From Sphingomonadaceae bacterium (GTDB lineage: Bacteria > Pseudomonadota > Alphaproteobacteria > Sphingomonadales > Sphingomonadaceae), in assembly GCA_947476425.1 (NCBI GenBank), contig CANJQJ010000005.1, forward strand, positions 1 through 64,000: DNA of 64,000 nucleotides, given 5' to 3'. Position 1 is the first letter of the stretch, and each line of letters begins with the position of its first letter. The position numbers and the translations under genes were made by a program. This document shows positions 45,015 through 64,000 of the stretch, piece by piece. The notes beneath the pieces were generated by a model. The model worked only from the letters and a program-made list of their open reading frames with translations. It was not told the origin of the DNA and did not search any database.

Positions 45015-45884
45015 TTAACCGCCGTGGACCGGTGCGCCCCAGCCACCCCATACGTAGATCGAGGCGAAAAGGAACAGCCATACGACGTCGACGAAATGCC
45101 AGTACCAGGCGGCAGCCTCGAAGCCGAAATGCTGCTTGGCCGTGAAATCGCCCTTGTACGCGCGGATCAGGCAGACGCTCAGGAAGATCGTGCCGATGAT
45201 CACATGGAAGCCGTGGAAGCCAGTCGCCATGTAGAACGCCGCGCCATAGTTCACGCCCTTGAAGGGGAATGGTGCATGGGCATATTCCCAGGCCTGGATG
45301 CTCGAGAAGAGCAGGCCGAGCAGGATGGTGATCCACAAGCCAGAGATGAGCCCCTTGCGATCGCCCTTGAGCAGCGCGTGGTGCGCCCAGGTGACCGTCG
45401 TGCCCGAGCAGAGCAGGATCAGCGTGTTGAGCAGCGGGAATGCGAAGGGATCGAGAACCTCGATGCCCTTGGCCGGGAATACGCCCGGCGCGAGCGATAC
45501 GGTTTTCGCCGATGCGATGATCGAGGTGGCACCGTTGATGACCTCGACCGGGGCGGGGAACAGGGCGAAATCGAAGAACGCCCAGAACCAGCCAACGAAG
45601 AACATCACTTCGGAAGCGATGAACAGGATCATGCCATAACGCAGATGGAGGCTGACGACCGGCGTATGATCGCCGGCATGGGCCTCGCGGATCACGTCCG
45701 ACCACCAGCTGAACATCGTGAACAGCACGCCGGCGAGGCCGAGCAGGAATACCCAGCCGCCAAAGGGAGCACTGTGCATCCACATGATGCCGCCCGACGC
45801 CATCGTAAGCGCCGACATCGAGCCCACGAGGGGCCAGATGCTGGGTGGTAGAATATGATAATCGTGGGTCTTTGCGCCGGCCAT
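45015..45884 (-). CDS. ctaE: Cytochrome c oxidase subunit III
   Basis: Seven-helix subunit III of the aa3 oxidase. The 289-residue product has the [15 protein letters not shown] start, [36 protein letters not shown] and the C-terminal [15 protein letters not shown]. It stabilises the enzyme and helps proton uptake. The ATG at 45884 has GAGGGG upstream; the longer frame overlaps ctaG. It sits behind ctaG as usual. Confidence 0.97.
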
Positions 45885-47671: not shown

Positions 47672-49336
47672 TCAGTCGATCCGCGGAAGCGTTTCGAACT
47701 GATGGTATGGCGGCGGGCTCGACAGCGTCCACTCAAGCGTGGTCGCGCCTTCGCCCCAATAATTGCCTTCGACCTTCGGGCCGGCGAACATCGACCAGAA
47801 GACGTTGATGAAGAAGATCACCATGCCGACGGCCATCATGAAATAGCCATTGGTTGCGATGTGGTTCCAGTAGGCGAAGGCGTCCGGATAATCCGGGATA
47901 CGGCGCGGCATGCCCTCGAGGCCAAGGAAGTGCATCGGGAAGAACATGACGTTCACGCCGACGAAGAAGATCCAGAAATGCAGCTGGCCTAGGAGCTCGT
48001 TATACTGGCGACCGGTCATCTTGCCGAACCAGTAGTAGAAGCCCGCGAACAGCGAGAACACGGCGCCGAGCGACAACACATAGTGGAGGTGCGCGACGAC
48101 GTAATAGGTGTCCTGGACGACGTCATCGATGCCGCCGTTGGAGAGCACGACACCAGTCACGCCGCCAACGGTGAACATGAAGATGAAGCCCATCGCCCAC
48201 AGCATCGGGGTCTTGAAGGACAGCGAACCGCCCCACATCGTCGCGATCCACGAGAAGATCTTGATGCCGGTCGGCACCGCGATCACCATCGTCGCCGCGG
48301 TGAAGTACATCTTCGTGTTTACGCTCATGCCGGTGGTGTACATGTGGTGCGCCCACACGACGAAGCCGACCACGCCGATCGCGACCATCGCGTAGGCCAT
48401 GCCGAGATAGCCGAACACCGGCTTCTTGGAGAAGGTCGAGATCACCTGGCTGACGATGCCAAAGCCCGGCAGGATCATGATGTACACTTCGGGATGGCCG
48501 AAGAACCAGAACAGATGCTGGTAAAGCTCGGGATCGCCGCCGCCCGACGCATCGTAGAATGTCGTGCCGAAGTTACGATCGGTGAGCAGCATCGTGATCG
48601 CAGCGGCGAGGACCGGAAGCGCGAGAAGAAGCAGGAAGGCGGTGACCAGCACCGACCACACGAACAGCGGCATCTTGTGGAGGGTCATCCCCGGTGCGCG
48701 CATGTTGAAGATGGTGGTGATGAAATTGATCGCGCCGAGGATCGAGGAGGCGCCCGCAAGGTGGAGCGAGAGGATCGCCATGTCGACCGCAGGCCCAGGC
48801 GAACCGCTCGTCGAGAGCGGGGCATAGACCGTCCAGCCGGTGCCAGCGCCATTGCCGGTCCCGCCCGACACGAAGGTCGAGCCGAGCAGCAGCGTGAATG
48901 CCGGGATCATCAGCCAGAAGCTGACATTGTTCATGCGCGGGAACGCCATGTCGGGCGCGCCGATCATGATCGGGACGAACCAGTTGCCGAAGCCGCCGAT
49001 GATCGCGGGCATCACCATGAAGAACACCATGATCAGGCCGTGCGCGGTAATCAGCACGTTCCACATGTGGAGCGCGGTATCGAGATTGGTCGTGCCCGCC
49101 CAAAGCGGGAGATACTGGATGCCCGGCTCGGCGAGTTCGAGGCGCATGAGCCCCGAGATCGCGCCGCCGATGATCCCCGCGAAAATCGCGAAAATCAAAT
49201 AGAGGGTGCCGATGTCCTTGTGATTGGTGGACATGAACCAGCGTTGGAAGAACGCCGGCTTGTGATCCGCGTCATGATGATGCTCATGCGCGTGATCGCC
49301 TTGGAAATGAAGGGCGTTTGCGGTTGTATCGGTCAT
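47672..49336 (-). CDS. ctaD: Cytochrome c oxidase subunit I
   Basis: Catalytic subunit with heme a and the heme a3-CuB centre. The 554-residue, twelve-helix product shows [17 protein letters not shown], the D-channel glutamate region [26 protein letters not shown] and the heme ligand segment [15 protein letters not shown]. The last is usually AHFHYV; here a leucine stands between the two heme-ligand histidines. The N-terminus is His-rich ([11 protein letters not shown]). It lies 13 bases after coxB. Confidence 0.97.
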
Positions 49337-57922: not shown

Positions 57923-58927
57923 TCAGGCGAGGACAGTCTTCAGTCCGCGCTTGCGCGTTCGCATCGATCCGCCGACGAGGCCGAAGCCGGCGATCATCAT
58001 TGCCCAGTTGGTCGGTTCGGGGACGCCGGGGGTGATGACGTCCGCCGCACCCGAGACGACAAAGGCGGCGAGGAAGATATTGTCGTCCTGCGACGCGTTC
58101 GAGGTCAACACCTTGATCGAGCTGTCGCCCACGGCGATGTAGGGCGTGAGATCATAGCGCTCATGATCGTCGCCATAGGCAGGCAGCAGCGCGGAGAAGG
58201 GATCGTCGCTCCCGCCCATCGTGATGAGCTGGCCATTCGAGATCCCGCCGAGCCCATCGTCATTATTGCCCGCGACCTCGGTGATCGCGTTGCCGTTGAC
58301 GCTGACCTCGGATTGCTGGCCGCAGCAGCTGAAGTTAATCCCGAGCCGCATTTCCGCCTGAAAACCCGGCGCCGTCGGATCGAGCGGATCGACGAAGTTG
58401 AGCGCGGTGGCATCGCCGGTGACCGAGGCGAAACCATCGAGCAGGGCGACCGTCGTCGTCCCGAGCGAGGCAAGGCTGTAGATTACGGCGAGCGCTGTTC
58501 CGTCAGTGGTACCGGTGTTGCCCTCCTGGATCTTGAAGTCATATTGGCCACCCGGTCCGCCATCGACTGCCGCTGCGATGAGGCTGGTAACGTCGGCGCG
58601 GGCGGAGGCCAGGCTGCAGCAGGCTGTCGCATTGGCCACCTGGGGGTCGAAGGTCAGCGCATTGCCGTCAAGCGAGATCGTGTCGGGGGTTCCGCTGCTG
58701 GCCCAGGTCGCCTGGTAGAGATACGCCGCCTTGACCGTTGCACCCAACGGAACGAAGGCGCTGACGAGGTAGCTGTCACCCTCGGCATTGCCGCCGCCAT
58801 CGGTTGAAAGGCCATAGTTGCCGATAAAGGATTTGAAGAGCCCCAATGATGCCTCGGCACCTGTCGCCGAAAGCAAGGTCGACGCAGCCAATGCCAATGC
58901 CAGCGTCTTGAATTTCTTGTCACGCAT
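57923..58927 (-). CDS. PEPxxWA-CTERM sorting-domain protein
   Basis: A 334-residue exported protein. It has a signal peptide (residues 1-26, ATGAEA end), a beta-rich region with Cys-Cys pairs (ATACCSLAS, NFSCCGQQ), and the sorting tail VPEPTNWAMMIAGFGLVGGS followed by RTRKR. It should be cut by an exosortase and placed at the surface. No known enzymatic domain is seen. AGGGGTG precedes the ATG, and a strong terminator follows. Confidence 0.92.
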   Translation of the reverse strand: MRDKKFKTLALALAASTLLSATGAEASLGLFKSFIGNYGLSTDGGGNAEGDSYLVSAFVPLGATVKAAYLYQATWASSGTPDTISLDGNALTFDPQVANATACCSLASARADVTSLIAAAVDGGPGGQYDFKIQEGNTGTTDGTALAVIYSLASLGTTTVALLDGFASVTGDATALNFVDPLDPTAPGFQAEMRLGINFSCCGQQSEVSVNGNAITEVAGNNDDGLGGISNGQLITMGGSDDPFSALLPAYGDDHERYDLTPYIAVGDSSIKVLTSNASQDDNIFLAAFVVSGAADVITPGVPEPTNWAMMIAGFGLVGGSMRTRKRGLKTVLA

Positions 58928-61711
<2,784 letters not shown>

Positions 61712-61745: not shown

Positions 61746-61774
61746 CGTCATCCTGAACTTGTTTCAGGATGACG
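61746..61774. repeat. Palindromic REP-like hairpin after gyrB
   Basis: A 12-bp perfect stem, CGTCATCCTGAA against TTCAGGATGACG, with a five-base loop, 34 bp after the gyrB stop. The CGTCATCC end resembles the ends of the 96-bp elements. It may also terminate or protect the gyrB message. Confidence 0.75.
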
Positions 61775-61780
61775 GAGTGG

Positions 61781-62062
61781 CTATCTCGGAAGCCCCATCC
61801 AGTAAAGCGTCAGGATCGCGGCGCAGACCAGCAGCACCCAGCCTTCGAACGCGAAGCGCAGCGGGACGGGGGCGTGGCGGAGTTCCATGAATTCGAGGCC
61901 GATGAAGCGGACCTTGAGGAACGCGACGATCATTACCGCGCAGGTGGCGATGCTCTGGAGGCTCGCGCCGCGGCCAATATGCGCGCTGTCGAACGACACC
62001 AGCGTGGCGCAGACGAGCAGCAGCCAGATCAGGGTGATGCGATTGCGGAAAATCAATGCCAT
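61781..62062 (-). CDS. Cytochrome c oxidase subunit IV-like (NorF-type) membrane protein
   Basis: A 93-residue protein with three hydrophobic segments (about residues 9-24, 38-52 and 71-88) and the EFMELRHAPVPLRFAFEGW loop typical of the prokaryotic oxidase subunit IV/NorF family. NorF accompanies NorE in nitric-oxide-reductase loci. No norBC genes are in this window. It lies six bases after the subunit III-like gene. Confidence 0.88.
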   Translation of the reverse strand: MALIFRNRITLIWLLLVCATLVSFDSAHIGRGASLQSIATCAVMIVAFLKVRFIGLEFMELRHAPVPLRFAFEGWVLLVCAAILTLYWMGLPR

Positions 62063-62068
62063 GTCAGC

Positions 62069-62644
62069 CTATTTCATCAAATAGAGGAGCGCGAAGAGCA
62101 CGACCCACAGCAGGTCGACGAGATGCCAGAAGGCGCCGCCGCCTTCGAGCGTGTTCAGGAAGCCCGGATCGGGTTGCTGCCTTCGCGAACGGACCAGCAA
62201 CCAGGTGAGCACGCTGAGACCGATCAGCACGTGCGCGAGGTGGATGCCGGTGAACATGAAGTAGAATATGAAGAATTCATTGGTGTTGAGCGTGATGCCA
62301 TGGCTGATCTTGTCGCCCCACTCGACGATCTTGACCACGACGAAACCAAGCCCGCAGACGATCGCTCCGCCAAGCAGCATCGGGGTCTGGCGACCGCCAG
62401 TGCGCGCAACGCGGACGGCTTGCGCAACGAACAGGGAACTCGTCAGCAACAGCATCGTGTTGAGCAGGCCGAGCTTGCGATTGAGCAGCTCCTGGGCCTC
62501 GCTATAGAGCGGGATGTTATCGACGCGATAATAGACAAAGGTGAGAAAGAAGAGCGCGAAGACCATCATGTCGCCCAGGATGAAGACCCAGACGCCTTCC
62601 TCGCCGGGCAGGTGCCGGGCCTTGCGCTGCGAAACGGCTTCCAT
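62069..62644 (-). CDS. Cytochrome c oxidase subunit III family protein (NorE-like)
   Basis: A 191-residue, five-helix protein of the heme-copper oxidase subunit III superfamily. The HLPGEEGVWVFILGDMMVFA start and TGIHLAHVLIGLSVLTWLLV, FWHLVDLLWVVLFALLY are hallmarks of the NorE branch. It is shorter than the true aa3 subunit III encoded at 45 kb. With the NorF-like gene it forms a pair, and there is no subunit I or II beside it. AAGAGGA precedes the ATG. Confidence 0.92.
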   Translation of the reverse strand: MEAVSQRKARHLPGEEGVWVFILGDMMVFALFFLTFVYYRVDNIPLYSEAQELLNRKLGLLNTMLLLTSSLFVAQAVRVARTGGRQTPMLLGGAIVCGLGFVVVKIVEWGDKISHGITLNTNEFFIFYFMFTGIHLAHVLIGLSVLTWLLVRSRRQQPDPGFLNTLEGGGAFWHLVDLLWVVLFALLYLMK

Positions 62645-62664
62645 TGTAAATCCTCTTGATCGAT

Positions 62665-62694
62665 CCCTCGTCCCCGCACGTGCGGGGACGAGGG
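62665..62694. repeat. 30-bp perfect palindrome
   Basis: CCCTCGTCCCCGCAC is followed at once by its exact reverse complement. It sits in the 56-bp gap between the seven-helix membrane protein gene and the NorE-like gene. It may be an intra-operon hairpin or a REP-type repeat. Confidence 0.8.
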
Positions 62695-62700
62695 GGATAT

Positions 62701-63390
62701 TCAGGCCTGTAGCTCAGGACGCGACGCCGCGCGGCGCATCGCCCAGAACAGGACGTTGATCATGAAACCGAACGCCACGGCGGGAACCCAGAAAGCGAGG
62801 ATACCATTCCATGCGAACGGGCCGGTCTTGAAAAAGGGAATAACGCATCCCGGAATCGAAAGCACGCCAACCCAGATGCAGAAATAGCCGGTCCAGCGTG
62901 GAAAGAGCGGCTCTGCATTGACGTCGCCGAGGATGATCAGGCCAGTAATGACGAACTGCAGGAGCCCGGGCAATGCGGGGATGACCAGCATGAAGATGCC
63001 AAGATCGGCAAGCATGCCGACGGTTTCAGCGCTCATGTCGGGCCGGAATGCCGCCTCGACGAAGAATACCGCCATGAAGAACAGCAGCACAAATCCGAAC
63101 GGGACCAGCATGATAATGCCATAGGTCAATGGCGCAGACTTGCCTTCCATCTTCTTGAGGCAGACGACCAGCCCCCCGAAAAAGAACATGAAGAGCGGCG
63201 AGGCGAACATCATAATGATCGCACCGATGAACATGTTGGATGCATTATCGTGGAAATGGCTCGCCCATTCGGCAAGCGGAAGGCCCGGTGAAGGGGGCGG
63301 CAGGACATGCCATGCGGGCCACATTGCCATGAACATCAGGAACATGGCGATTTGGCCGGCCCAGGCGCACAATATTATCGATCGGTTCAT
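62701..63390 (-). CDS. Uncharacterised seven-helix membrane protein
   Basis: A 229-residue protein with about seven hydrophobic helices. Recognisable conserved stretches are PPPSPGLPLAEWASHF after helix 1, VEAAFRPDMSAETVGMLADLG in the middle, and FPRWTGYFCIWVG plus FFKTGPFAWNGILAFWVPA near the end. I recognise this pattern as a family that also occurs in actinobacteria, with no assigned function. The ATG at 63390 has GGAGAATG upstream. It precedes the NorE/NorF-like pair on the same strand. Confidence 0.85.
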   Translation of the reverse strand: MNRSIILCAWAGQIAMFLMFMAMWPAWHVLPPPSPGLPLAEWASHFHDNASNMFIGAIIMMFASPLFMFFFGGLVVCLKKMEGKSAPLTYGIIMLVPFGFVLLFFMAVFFVEAAFRPDMSAETVGMLADLGIFMLVIPALPGLLQFVITGLIILGDVNAEPLFPRWTGYFCIWVGVLSIPGCVIPFFKTGPFAWNGILAFWVPAVAFGFMINVLFWAMRRAASRPELQA

Positions 63391-63531: not shown

Positions 63532-64000
63532 TTATTCGCCGAAGGTGCGCTGCCACCAGCCGCGACGCGGGCCACCGCCCTCGCCATCGGTGTCGTTCGC
63601 TGCGTCCTCGGACTCAGCGTCGGCCTCGACCGGCGCTGGTTCGGCTATCGCATCCTCGACGGCAACGGCGACCGGCGCCGCAGCCTTGCGGGCGCGGGGC
63701 CGGCGAGCCTTGACCGGCGCGTCTTCCGCGACGACCGGTTCCGCAATGACCTCGGGCTGCGGCGCTGCTTCAGGCGCTACCTCGGGCACGACATCGACGA
63801 CATCGGCCTTCTTGCGGCGAACCCGCTTTGGCTTGGCAGGCGCTTCCTCGGCAGTCACCGCTTCGACGACAGGCGTCTCGACGGGGGCTTGGACCGCGGC
63901 TTCCACGGCCGGTTCGGCCTTGCGAGCGCGCGGACGGCGACGGGTCTTGGGCTTTTCGCCCTCGACGATCGCTTCGACTTCAGCTGCAACGGGTGCCTCG
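63532..64000 (-). CDS. rne: Ribonuclease E/G family protein, C-terminal end only
   Basis: The window cuts the gene; only the last roughly 155 residues are visible. They are Ala/Pro/Val/Glu-rich with basic clusters (KPKTRRRPRARK, KPKRVRRKK, KARRPRARK) and end GPRRGWWQRTFGE. That ending, with the preceding low-complexity scaffold, is typical of sphingomonad RNase E, the endonuclease that starts mRNA decay and organises the degradosome. The catalytic domain lies to the right of the window, so this call rests on the tail alone. Confidence 0.75.
   Translation of the reverse strand, partial: EAPVAAEVEAIVEGEKPKTRRRPRARKAEPAVEAAVQAPVETPVVEAVTAEEAPAKPKRVRRKKADVVDVVPEVAPEAAPQPEVIAEPVVAEDAPVKARRPRARKAAAPVAVAVEDAIAEPAPVEADAESEDAANDTDGEGGGPRRGWWQRTFGE

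Follow-up and report, generated by a model that had tools for sequence, protein, structure and literature searches.

Subunits III and IV are viewed as auxiliary to haem-copper enzymes. NorE and NorF aid nitric oxide reductase (NOR) but are not essential to it. The genome of the Sphingomonadaceae bacterium examined here (assembly GCA_947476425.1) encodes a protein pair of this kind next to a six-helix membrane protein. The window, that is, the whole stretch of DNA analysed, comprises the first 64,000 nucleotides of contig CANJQJ010000005.1. Three open reading frames occupy positions 61781–63390, as reported in the initial annotation. All of them lie on the minus strand, in the order six-helix, COX3-like, COX4-like. 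The features of this locus are as follows:

62701..63390, minus strand: six-helix protein, 229 aa; open reading frame with GGAG before the ATG at 63390 (by eye)
62069..62644, minus strand: COX3/NorE-like five-helix protein, 191 aa; Pfam COX3, E 2.6e-11
61781..62062, minus strand: COX4_pro/NorF-like protein, 93 aa; Pfam COX4_pro, E 1.8e-11
63522 to 63492, minus strand: terminator-like hairpin after rne, upstream of the trio; 13 pairs, 8 of them G-C, followed by a stretch of T

The six-helix and COX3-like genes are 56 bases apart, and 6 bases separate the stop codon of the latter from the COX4-like gene. The trio is flanked by gyrB (plus strand, ending at 61711; NCBIfam gyrB) and by rne (minus strand, ending at 63532), which was recognized from its sequence. 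Since the terminator-like hairpin after rne lies just upstream, the trio may be a transcription unit of its own; one such site was found against 1.5 expected by chance in the scanned stretch. A perfect 20-base palindrome, GTCCCCGCACGTGCGGGGAC, unique within the window, is located between the six-helix and COX3-like genes (62670–62689). An inverted repeat, GTCATCCTGAACTTGTTTCAGGATGAC, occurs once in the window, between the convergent gyrB and COX4-like genes (61747–61773). Elsewhere in the window, positions 57923–58927 encode a protein with a PEP-CTERM-like sorting signal at its end (VPEPTNWAMMIAGFG), read by eye.

The description of the pair as NorE/NorF-like was borne out. The larger protein matched Pfam COX3 above the curated cut-off and is thus a member of the COX3 superfamily, while the smaller one scored 44.7 bits with COX4_pro against a cut-off of 28.9. 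In NCBIfam, the COX3-like protein matched models of oxidase subunit III only, far below their cut-offs. It was modelled with AlphaFold2 as a five-helix subunit III (pLDDT 93.1), and the top Foldseek match of this model was subunit III of the Corynebacterium glutamicum aa3 oxidase (E 2.2e-7). The residues typical of subunit III, namely H135, H138, W173, H174, and D177, are retained.

In a COX3 tree of 71 rows, the trio-type proteins formed a branch of 64 rows (support 95/94). Two NorE proteins of nor clusters, a pair from Azospirillum, and the NorE of Thiothrix fell outside this branch; several branches were long and the joins among them are unsure. The tree places the pair on a separate branch within subunit III. 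The COX3 of an Azoarcus plasmid is encoded close to a six-helix relative; it grouped with Thiothrix outside the trio-type branch and counts against a clean rule. The first helix of the trio COX3 carried Asp in all 53 proteins tested, at a position occupied by Glu in the NorE and NorE-like proteins used for comparison. This Asp is not a private mark of the trio, as it was also found in an oxidase-type COX3 on contig 44 of the same genome. Three records on the tree titled Klebsiella pneumoniae (MAGs; L116, L117, and L125) grouped with gammaproteobacterial MAGs, and their names are probably wrong. The Thiothrix fructosivorans plasmid carries a cluster of NorE-NorF-hemerythrin-NorQ-NorD-like genes (L087, 4944–8739), with norCB absent from the stretch shown.

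Of 376 pattern matches obtained in 84,980 species genomes, 352 were confirmed as six-helix relatives. The best 80 of these 352 were kept as 79 loci, a sample that leans to near relatives. The co-occurrence of the three genes proved to be wide: in 52 of these 79 loci, the best-scoring of the 352 relatives, the order six-helix/COX3/COX4 was intact on one strand. In three further loci (L166, L146, and L107), COX3 was cut, truncated, or kilobases away, and in the remaining 24 the six-helix gene had no COX3 in the examined stretch. Judged by their record titles, the hosts belong to groups such as Alpha-, Beta-, and Gammaproteobacteria, Binatia, Myxococcota, and Actinomycetes. The recurrence of the trio is no accident. 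Among the trio-type COX3 genes with flanks available, all 29 had COX4 beside them and 22 had a six-helix gene within about 1.5 kb. The six-helix and COX3 distances of 37 non-redundant trios were correlated with r 0.896 (0 of 2000 permutations as high), a value expected of genes travelling together that shared descent alone can also give.

A separate search confined to plasmids revealed six-helix relatives in Novosphingobium, Sphingobium, Rhodococcus, Mycobacterium, Pseudonocardia, Streptomyces, Diaphorobacter, and Azoarcus, most of them with an adjoining COX3/COX4 pair. The nearest relatives of the six-helix protein from the window came from Actibacterium naphthalenivorans (57%) and a Hydrocarboniphaga MAG (50%); these are closer to it than the sphingomonad copies found. 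Six-helix relatives were present in 6 of 149 genomes of the family. The corresponding numbers were at least 8 of 396 genomes for the order and at least 2 of 398 for the phylum, both lower bounds as the seven best first-look candidates per genome were scored; the genome studied is included in all three counts. The position of the nearest relatives outside the sphingomonads and the patchy presence within the family point to horizontal spread. One genome of the same family contains a six-helix gene with stop codons inside (G419; L049, 9546–10214).

The number of six-helix genes was determined in 22 six-helix-bearing genomes as matches at E 1e-10, a count in which broken genes may appear twice and MAGs may mix strains. 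It reached 49 in Mycolicibacterium rhodesiae, 47 in a Mycobacterium MAG, and 37 in a betaproteobacterial MAG, followed by M. triplex (26), a Sporichthya MAG (24), Pseudonocardia eucalypti (21), M. palustre (17), and the Hydrocarboniphaga MAG (15). Four of the 22 genomes, including the one studied here, had a single copy. The COX3 scores in the 22 genomes were two-peaked, with trio-type proteins at 170 bits or more and all others below 100. The Mycobacterium MAG had 13 trio-type COX3 genes, M. rhodesiae 8, a Sinobacteraceae MAG 6, and M. triplex and a Sterolibacteriaceae MAG 5 each. In a Desulfatitalea MAG (G853), a trio-type COX3 was the sole COX3 at E 1e-10, although contamination of this MAG is possible. 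The betaproteobacterial MAG combined its 37 six-helix genes with only one trio-type COX3, so that most of its copies must do without a dedicated pair. In mycobacteria and other bacteria, the six-helix genes make up a large family of paralogues. They are usually more numerous than the COX3/COX4 pair and are often found unaccompanied by it. This expansion adds to what the initial annotation had noticed. Given the copy numbers, the adjacency of COX4 and the six-helix gene to trio-type COX3, and the changes between the paired and the solo state (at least 21 on the six-helix tree), the pair is the constant part of the module, while the six-helix part varies and multiplies.

Of 131 six-helix rows, 80 were paired, 8 had the pair near, 3 were cut off by contig ends, and 40 were without COX3 in the examined stretch. 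Together with the repeated paired/solo changes and the surplus of six-helix genes over pairs in several genomes, these 40 rows would suit a six-helix protein that acts alone, as a membrane enzyme, carrier, or receptor for hydrophobic compounds, with the pair as a frequent helper of some copies and no structural component. The tight three-gene order in those 52 of the 79 best-scoring loci, seen across phyla, argues against it, as does the presence of at least one trio-type COX3 in 20 of the 22 genomes (a Hirschia MAG and a single-cell genome had none). We regard action alone as rather doubtful and prefer a joint function of the three proteins.

The six-helix protein matched no Pfam or NCBIfam family above cut-off. 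Its AlphaFold2 model, built from 86 sequences (the protein from the window and its relatives), had a mean pLDDT of 96.3 and a pTM of 0.90. The protein had been annotated as seven-helix; the model contains six long membrane helices (3–26, 50–82, 87–115, 121–154, 165–182, and 197–221, the fourth and fifth of them broken) and one short surface helix (39–48). The strong conservation noticed earlier in two motifs was confirmed, FPRWTGYFC and FFKTGPFAWNG being among the most conserved parts in the 86 sequences. Invariant residues are W166, G190, and G196, and P161, P164, R165, W173, F187, K188, P191, A193, and W194 are kept in at least 90% of the sequences. No column has His in most sequences, and the only column with more than 50% His or Cys is that of Cys8 (70%). 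In the absence of conserved histidines, the alignment gives no sign of a haem or copper site of the subunit I type. According to the positive-inside rule, both termini are probably inside. With that orientation, the outer face would carry R116, K188, and W194 (D129 being slightly deeper), and the inner face D156, R165, and W166.

A search of solved structures by sequence gave a best E of 1.6, and comparison of the fold with the PDB and with viral models returned nothing at E 0.001 or better. The best Z scores in a second structural alignment were 11.1 (yeast Ste2) and 10.0 (a designed six-helix barrel); according to the tool's notes, this is the ordinary range for helical bundles, and no row stands out as a relative. 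Profile comparisons with AveC-like proteins and with subunit III itself found nothing. With regard to a phage or viral origin, there was no phage match, and one candidate stretch on a viral contig was unconfirmed. DUF4386 (PF14329) gave no hit with the protein from the window. Weak matches over most of the length of this family were obtained at several six-helix relatives, two of which exceeded the cut-off of 27.6 bits (30.9 in the protein of locus L024 and 27.7 at a place in a Mycobacterium MAG). A direct profile comparison of the six-helix protein with a true DUF4386 protein found nothing, and the possible affinity to this family is a lead only.

The genome (estimated completeness 99.39%) was searched for haem-copper enzymes with the profile PF00115, which covers oxidase subunit I and NorB. 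Two matches only were obtained, CtaD and CcoN. CtaD is encoded within the window (47672–49336), adjacent to CoxB and accompanied by a subunit III located around 45015–45870; CcoN is encoded on contig 32. The genome thus has aa3 and cbb3 oxidases. The catalytic subunit I of an oxidase or NOR complex was not found at the locus: no PF00115 gene lies in or next to the trio, and CtaD is more than 12 kb away. The earlier statement that subunits I and II are missing holds for the immediate surroundings of the trio and fails for the window as a whole, which contains, at a distance of 11 to 17 kb, an aa3 operon that encodes CoxB and CtaD together with a separate subunit III. A further set of COX3, COX4_pro, and cytochrome c-like genes is present on contig 44 (L030, 8703–11953). 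There, an open reading frame upstream of the cytochrome c-like gene reads as KdpA running into an apparent tail of another oxidase subunit, which looks like a shortened oxidase operon or an assembly join.

These oxidases could be the partners of the pair, which would then replace or join subunits III and IV of an aa3 or cbb3 enzyme under special conditions, with the six-helix protein as an assembly factor or regulator. Both oxidases are available in the genome, and the model of the COX3-like protein is that of a normal subunit III with its conserved residues. The aa3 operon, however, already includes a subunit III, and one Mycobacterium MAG has many more trio-type COX3 (13) and six-helix genes (47) than oxidases would require. 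In addition, the trio was not beside oxidase core genes in any of the 18 plasmid stretches opened for this purpose (16 of them annotated). A role in ordinary oxidases is therefore unlikely in our view, and a complex distinct from them is preferred.

Pfam analysis covered 188 of the 232 open reading frames listed as neighbours. The commonest families were luciferase-like oxidoreductases (9), short-chain dehydrogenases/reductases (SDR; 8), APH-like proteins (8), Rieske proteins (7), aldehyde dehydrogenases (6), and cytochromes P450 (5). In the copy-rich loci, the neighbours included acyl-CoA dehydrogenase, carotenoid-oxygenase-like proteins, and FAD oxidoreductases. Catabolic islands and plasmids are rich in such oxidoreductase genes anyway; for this reason, and because the survey had no control set, the neighbours support a catabolic setting only weakly. 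The neighbours of the trio in the window are housekeeping genes (gyrB and rne), not catabolic ones. Neighbours vary across the loci, and a fourth constant gene is absent. A cluster of AveC-like multi-helix membrane proteins was located near six-helix genes in 5 of the 79 loci (L103, L152, L154, L159, and L161). A link to mycofactocin, prompted by mft genes on a Streptomyces plasmid and a gene annotated as mftR in Novosphingobium, was rejected, as the mycofactocin radical SAM protein was above cut-off in none of 14 six-helix-bearing genomes.

The many flavin or iron–sulphur oxidoreductases among the neighbours would agree with a membrane docking and quinone-side station that passes electrons from neighbouring dehydrogenases into the respiratory chain. 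We judge this highly unlikely, as a redox cofactor site is not apparent in the six-helix protein and no constant dehydrogenase partner was seen across the loci, with none at all beside the trio of the window. That the pair serves as NorE/NorF of a NOR encoded elsewhere is suggested by family resemblance and is extremely improbable, since the two NorE proteins from nor clusters fall outside the branch of the pair and no NorB, which membership in a cNOR would call for, was found in the genome by the PF00115 search. The initial annotation had recorded no reductase, in agreement with this result; it had named norCBQD elsewhere in the genome under the same regulation and a lack of co-occurrence as findings that would count against a separate complex, and neither was encountered, the nor part being judged by NorB.

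The explanation we favour, held tentatively and as slightly less than probable, is a non-redox membrane complex in which a variable, substrate-related six-helix part is placed on a shared COX3/COX4 scaffold and deals with hydrophobic compounds. The trio would form a membrane complex of its own, neither an oxidase nor a NO reductase, with the six-helix protein as the central and variable subunit. In oxidases, subunits III and IV pack against the catalytic subunit; in an analogous way, the COX3-like and COX4-like proteins would flank the six-helix protein as a common scaffold. The six-helix protein would carry no haem or copper, as conserved histidines are absent. A predicted site that may bind or pass on a hydrophobic compound would be formed by conserved charged and aromatic residues, namely R116, D129, K188, and W194 on the outer side and D156, R165, and W166 on the inner one. 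Different paralogues would serve different compounds, and their genes would be close to those of the oxidoreductases and CoA enzymes that degrade the respective compound.

The tight gene order across phyla speaks for joint work of the three proteins. Up to 49 copies per genome suit a substrate-specific part better than an accessory of an oxidase, and an accessory role in oxidase or NOR is disfavoured by the copy numbers and the lack of metal ligands. Against a separate complex, the subunit III residues retained in the COX3-like protein would also suit binding to a real oxidase; the 24 of 79 loci without COX3 in the examined stretch, the MAG with 37 six-helix genes and a single trio-type COX3, the varying neighbours, and the housekeeping ones in the window count in the same direction. 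It is possible, although somewhat doubtful, that the module represents an undescribed class of complexes, in which a non-redox III/IV scaffold is shared in turn by diversified six-helix proteins (up to 49 per genome) handling hydrophobic compounds. No title among the results of a literature search, with subscription papers outside it, describes this module, which does not show its absence from print. A conserved module with another partner would make subunits III/IV a more general membrane scaffold. The six-helix family represents a large unexplained expansion of paralogues, with tens of copies in several mycobacterial genomes. Since catabolic oxidoreductases are often encoded nearby, an involvement in the use of hydrophobic compounds is directly testable.

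Comparison with described proteins places the trio as follows. DUF4386 proteins, the function of which is unknown, resemble the six-helix protein in length, and two of its relatives score above the cut-off of this family over most of its length, but the protein from the window gives no match. Subunits III and IV of aa3 and bo3 oxidases (CtaE, CyoC, and QoxC) share with the pair the subunit III fold and the conserved His, Trp, and Asp residues, whereas the trio includes no subunit I or II and its NCBIfam scores are far below the cut-offs. The accessory proteins NorE and NorF of cNOR, as encoded in the nor clusters of Paracoccus alcaliphilus and Roseibium aggregatum, agree with the pair in the succession of a COX3-like and a COX4-like gene, in a short subunit III without the first two helices, and in a PGE-like motif ahead of the first helix (by eye). 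In contrast to these, the trio has no adjoining nor genes, belongs to a separate branch of the COX3 tree, carries Asp in the first helix of COX3 where the compared NorE proteins have Glu, and possesses a recurrent six-helix partner.
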